Source of the DNA: Dromaius novaehollandiae
Lineage: Eukaryota; Chordata; Aves; Casuariiformes; Dromaiidae
Direction of reading: 5' to 3'
DNA: 64,000 nt
Assembly: GCF_036370855.1 (NCBI RefSeq)
Contig: NC_088098.1
Location: forward strand, 138,032,721 to 138,096,720
The notes beneath the pieces were generated by a model, which did not search any database, was not told where the DNA came from, and saw only the letters and a program-made list of their open reading frames with translations. A program made the position numbers and the translations under genes. Shown here piece by piece: positions 35,729 to 62,467 of the stretch (position 1 is its first letter; the number at the start of each line of letters is the position of its first letter).

Positions 35729-62467
<26,739 letters not shown>

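Follow-up and report, generated by a model that had tools for sequence, protein, structure and literature searches.

A 21-base microexon candidate in intron 2 of emu PRPS2 is probably a chance pair of splice-like sites

Insertions in the flexible loops of PRPS proteins

Human PRPS2 occurs in a long form, PRPS2-long, with three residues added after Lys102 (PMC10227994), and the extra residues correspond to nine nucleotides that arise from alternative splicing (PMC9221600). In the sequence of PDB 8yi9 they are VGE, placed between Lys102 and Ser103, so that the long isoform (321 aa; PDB 8yi9, 8ypy) carries its insertion in the regulatory flexible (RF) loop. The DNA described here, from the emu Dromaius novaehollandiae, contains a 21-base candidate whose insertion point is the same and which fits the PRPS2-long type in position and frame, if the 21 bases are included, although it would add seven residues against the three of the human form. 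A preliminary description of this DNA had mentioned a human long form with a few extra residues after Lys102, and their number is three.

Larger insertions are known in the flexible loops of PRPS proteins, namely the NHR insertions of yeast Prs5 (RF loop) and of PRPSAP1/2 (CF loop). In entering a flexible loop they resemble the candidate, but they sit in paralogues, those of yeast measure 65-113 residues (PMC9221600), and those of PRPSAP lie in the CF loop, which is not the candidate's loop (PMC12238573). The insert in the RF loop of Prs5 has 113 residues; Prs5 itself is unable to make PRPP, which is ascribed to its insert in the other loop (PMC9221600), and it therefore does not show an active enzyme tolerating an RF-loop insert.

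The candidate is also like the symmetric alternative microexons of vertebrates in having at most 51 nt, a length divisible by three and a pyrimidine-rich acceptor (PMC4317164). Frame-keeping alternative microexons are described as usually having conserved flanks; enhancers are typical of such flanks in alternative microexons, with an excess of TGCATG on the downstream side, and the splicing machinery is considered to have difficulty with very short exons that lack helping features (PMC4317164). No paper on PRPS2 with a microexon or micro-exon was found in the literature search, nor one on the peptide KGAVERW. The available text of two papers on PRPS evolution (PMC12238573, PMC13252144) names no such PRPS2 microexon. 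In goose liver PRPS2 was among the differentially expressed genes, which qPCR bore out, and the available part of that paper mentions no splice event of PRPS2 (PMC12785810); in a viviparous lizard PRPS2 isoform usage changed in pregnancy, the isoforms not being named in the part available (PMC13387830).

The PRPS2 gene and the 21-base candidate

The window, that is the whole stretch of 64,000 nucleotides analysed, lies on a contig of 219.5 Mb (C1) of the 1.47-Gb genome and contains PRPS2 on the minus strand. Seven coding exons, located at 62346..62467 (exon 1, coding part), 50334..50517, 43992..44090, 42744..42868, 39651..39824, 36781..36940 and 35729..35821 (exon 7, coding part and stop), join to give an intact protein of 318 aa. 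Lys102 closes exon 2 (...KKDK102, donor gtaggtaag) and Ser103 opens exon 3 (S103RAPISAK...), the junction being of phase 0; intron 2 between them (44091..50333, minus strand) comprises 6,243 bases with 36.1% GC. Directly after exon 2 stands gtaggtaagat, which offers no GT nine bases on, and the exon can therefore not be lengthened by nine bases at this donor in emu. The human VGE residues come from such a lengthening at the exon 2 donor, and no exon of their own is known for them. A second donor is present four bases into that of emu exon 2 (gtaaga, 8.7 bits; window 50323-50333, minus strand), and its use would shift the frame. Elsewhere in the window, a 1046-residue open frame with leucine-rich repeats and a TIR domain (20267-23407, minus strand) represents a Toll-like receptor, which from its synteny with PRPS2 we take to be probably TLR7 or TLR8.

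The candidate, AAGGGGGCCGTGGAGCGTTGG, occupies positions 47589..47609 of the minus strand in intron 2; it is open, divisible by three, of phase 0-0, and encodes KGAVERW. It is flanked by ...tttgtttttttgatttgtag before and gtaggtatcc after, and its boundaries are the canonical AG/GT. The acceptor region (47610..47640, minus strand) includes a possible branch site (the YTNAY match cttat at -30), a T-rich tract and tag, with pyrimidines at 13 of the 17 positions from -20 to -4, the same as at PRPS2 exons 3 and 4; the donor gtaggt (47583..47588, minus strand) is followed by a T-rich stretch. A longer exon at this place is ruled out by an in-frame TAG directly before the 21 bases, and use of a tandem acceptor, tagaag (47607-47612, minus strand), would allow an exon of either 21 nt or, lacking the Lys codon, 18 nt.

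Joining of the exons gave a product of 318 aa with the 21 bases skipped and of 325 aa with the 21 bases included, the frame of the flanking exons being kept with a single stop, at the end. The inclusion product reads ...KKDK-KGAVERW-SRAP..., in which seven residues separate Lys102 from Ser103 in the RF loop. The 325-residue enzyme of the preliminary description was thus geometrically right, and its sequence, coordinates, strand, phase and junctions (50334 to 47609 and 47589 to 44090) were all found to be exact when re-read from the sequence.

Strength of the splice sites and their frequency by chance

The sites were scored with consensus matrices, not with a model trained on emu, and on this scale the candidate has an acceptor of 7.6 bits and a donor of 7.0 bits. 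The acceptors of PRPS2 exons 2-7 reach 7.7-13.6 bits, the candidate lying just below the weakest, and the donors of exons 1-6 reach 2.8-10.6 bits, two of the six being below that of the candidate. Two site pairs in intron 2 enclosing 3-30 nt attain the candidate's summed score, and only the candidate is both open and a multiple of three.

As controls, 20 stretches measuring 10 kb each, 17 on C1 and three on another contig, C2, were read on both strands, giving 394,600 bases without N. They contained 203 site pairs, or 3.21 per 6,243 bases. Open multiple-of-three pairs of 3-30 nt with a summed score at least that of the candidate numbered 50 (0.79 per intron-2 length), and in 15 of them both sites were at least as good (0.24 per intron-2 length), five of the 15 being 15-30 nt long (0.08); these rates are upper estimates of chance, since some control pairs may be real exons. 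Among 300 dinucleotide shuffles of intron 2, an open multiple-of-three pair of the candidate's summed score was present in 28%, and one of 3-30 nt whose two sites are each at least as good as the candidate's in about 9%. The search from which the candidate came had covered the whole window, not intron 2 alone, and on the two strands of the window there are 21 open in-frame pairs at the candidate's summed score and nine with both sites as good, the candidate being counted in each figure. Any excess of the candidate site pair over chance would be weak. Another pair in the window (2853-2867, minus strand) encloses a 15-nt open exon, GCCTGGAGAGAGGAG, and with 12.7/8.4 bits is stronger than the one in PRPS2.

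The preliminary description had pointed to G+C-rich bases in an AT-rich intron, which holds, 15 of the 21 bases being G or C as compared to 36.1% for intron 2. Together with two CpGs this makes the candidate a G+C and CpG peak in the intron: 21-mers with at least 15 G+C occur at three places only, and those with at least two CpGs in addition amount to 0.13% of all 21-mers of intron 2, the candidate's own included. None of the five control pairs that match the candidate in both sites and enclose 15-30 nt reaches a GC of 0.7, which is reached by four control pairs of that length having the same summed score with one weaker site; one of these four (L023; 30 nt, 8.8/6.9 bits, GC 0.73, 3 CpG) nearly equals the candidate. 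The G+C richness makes such pairs rarer, though one control comes close.

Regulatory motifs, copies and relatives

Neural (SRRM4/RBFOX) microexons carry UGC just upstream of the acceptor and UGCAUG downstream. The nearest TGC upstream of the candidate acceptor starts at -137, and GCATG is absent within 250 bases on either side, so that the suggested use in neural tissue is without support. Vertebrate microexons carry TGCATG and PTBP1 sites (PMC4317164), whereas the flanks of the candidate, besides lacking GCATG, contain a single TCTT, at -82. NOVA-type YCAY occurs, for example, at -36, +61, +102 and +130, this very short motif being too short to weigh. The missing motifs do not exclude inclusion of the candidate.

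No counterpart of the candidate was found in intron 2 of PRPS1 (C11), which has 339 bases. Shared ancestry with PRPS1 was rejected, 14 kb of PRPS1 DNA giving no closer match than one place with seven mismatches, on the other strand. A search of the genome with the exon 2 peptide, in which five candidates were scored, returned PRPS2 and PRPS1 as well as a match of 44% on C14 that may be a PRPS-associated relative; no processed copy carrying the exon was seen among them. Exact matches to the 21-mer, which would have pointed to contaminating relatives, numbered zero in the prokaryote and in the viral collection, as expected. KGAVERW was absent from the three human PRPS2 chains aligned, among the matches listed.

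Expected effect of a longer loop

In human PRPS2 the change K99A in the RF loop abolishes ADP inhibition and lowers activity (PMC10227994). In PRPS1, S103T is counted among the changes by which inhibition by ADP and GDP is lost, effects on activity are ascribed to both S103N and S103T, and phosphorylation of Ser103 by CDK1 possibly blocks ADP binding (PMC9221600). In the E. coli enzyme the loop shuts allosteric site 1 in filaments of one type and fills the ATP site in those of another (PMC9232217). From the K99A, Ser103 and E. coli data, seven residues placed directly before Ser103 would be expected to alter ADP control.

Interpretation of the candidate

The candidate is probably a pseudo-microexon, formed by two splice-like sites that are paired by chance in a long AT-rich intron and usually ignored, and we infer that it is not used. 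The spliceosome would normally join 50334 to 44090, giving the 318-residue PRPS2, and the 21 bases would be included at noise level at most. This reading draws on the observed sequence and frame, on the intact 318-aa gene and on the rate at which control DNA yields equally good pairs. In weighing it, about 0.08 chance pairs per such intron were set beside a prior of a few in a thousand for an unrecorded symmetric microexon, which is our own estimate; the latter was raised for the composition and the human precedent, and lowered for the missing motifs and the conservation of the loop. A repeat or another non-exonic element is disfavoured and very improbable: the G-rich stretch of 27 bases does adjoin T-rich tracts, but the 601-base context matches only itself in the genome (in a search that passes over simple repeats and words of very high frequency), which also led to rejection of a transposon origin, and the 21-mer has one exact place. 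With three mismatches it has 10 places against 22 for the reversed control pattern, and hence no repeat family is seen. It is rather unlikely that the 21 bases form a recent, lineage-specific cryptic exon included at low level as splicing noise, with no selected function; acceptor, donor and polypyrimidine tract would be adequate for it, but the difficulty attributed to the recognition of very short exons without helping features (PMC4317164) argues the other way.

The preliminary description had proposed the 21 bases as a candidate microexon, of which the geometry stood, whereas their status as an exon found nothing beyond a modest excess over chance, and PRPS1 is without a counterpart. A genuine regulated alternative microexon, in which KGAVERW lengthens the RF loop between Lys102 and Ser103, is to be regarded as unlikely. 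Its action would resemble that of the human VGE form on a larger scale, moving Ser103 and Arg104 away from Lys99-Asp101 and so altering ADP control at allosteric site 1 and feedback inhibition. The intact frame and junction phase, the G+C and CpG peak at the putative exon, site strengths near or within those of PRPS2's own exons and the VGE of human PRPS2-long at the same point are in its favour, as are the K99A result (PMC10227994), the findings on Ser103 and the existence of the Prs5 insert in the RF loop (PMC9221600). Against it stand equally good pairs arising by chance at 0.08-0.24 per intron length, the lack of a counterpart in PRPS1 of the same genome, the absence of GCATG and of a near TGC, the literature search without a paper on such a microexon or on KGAVERW, and Prs5 itself, which makes no PRPP and gives no precedent for an active enzyme (PMC9221600). 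It is likewise unlikely that the candidate is regulated and lineage-specific, a microexon with an evolutionary origin separate from that of the human three-residue form, and that it places the feedback inhibition of PRPP synthesis under splicing control.

Significance

If the candidate is unused, as its reading as a chance pair holds, it illustrates the frequency with which a long intron, read without tools, yields a convincing microexon by chance. A functional microexon would be of interest in view of the three-residue splice form that human PRPS2 has at this very residue. Inclusion of the 21 bases would mean that one residue of a feedback-controlled enzyme has received splice insertions twice, independently, and the idea that animals adjust PRPP synthesis through the length of the loop could then be put to the test.
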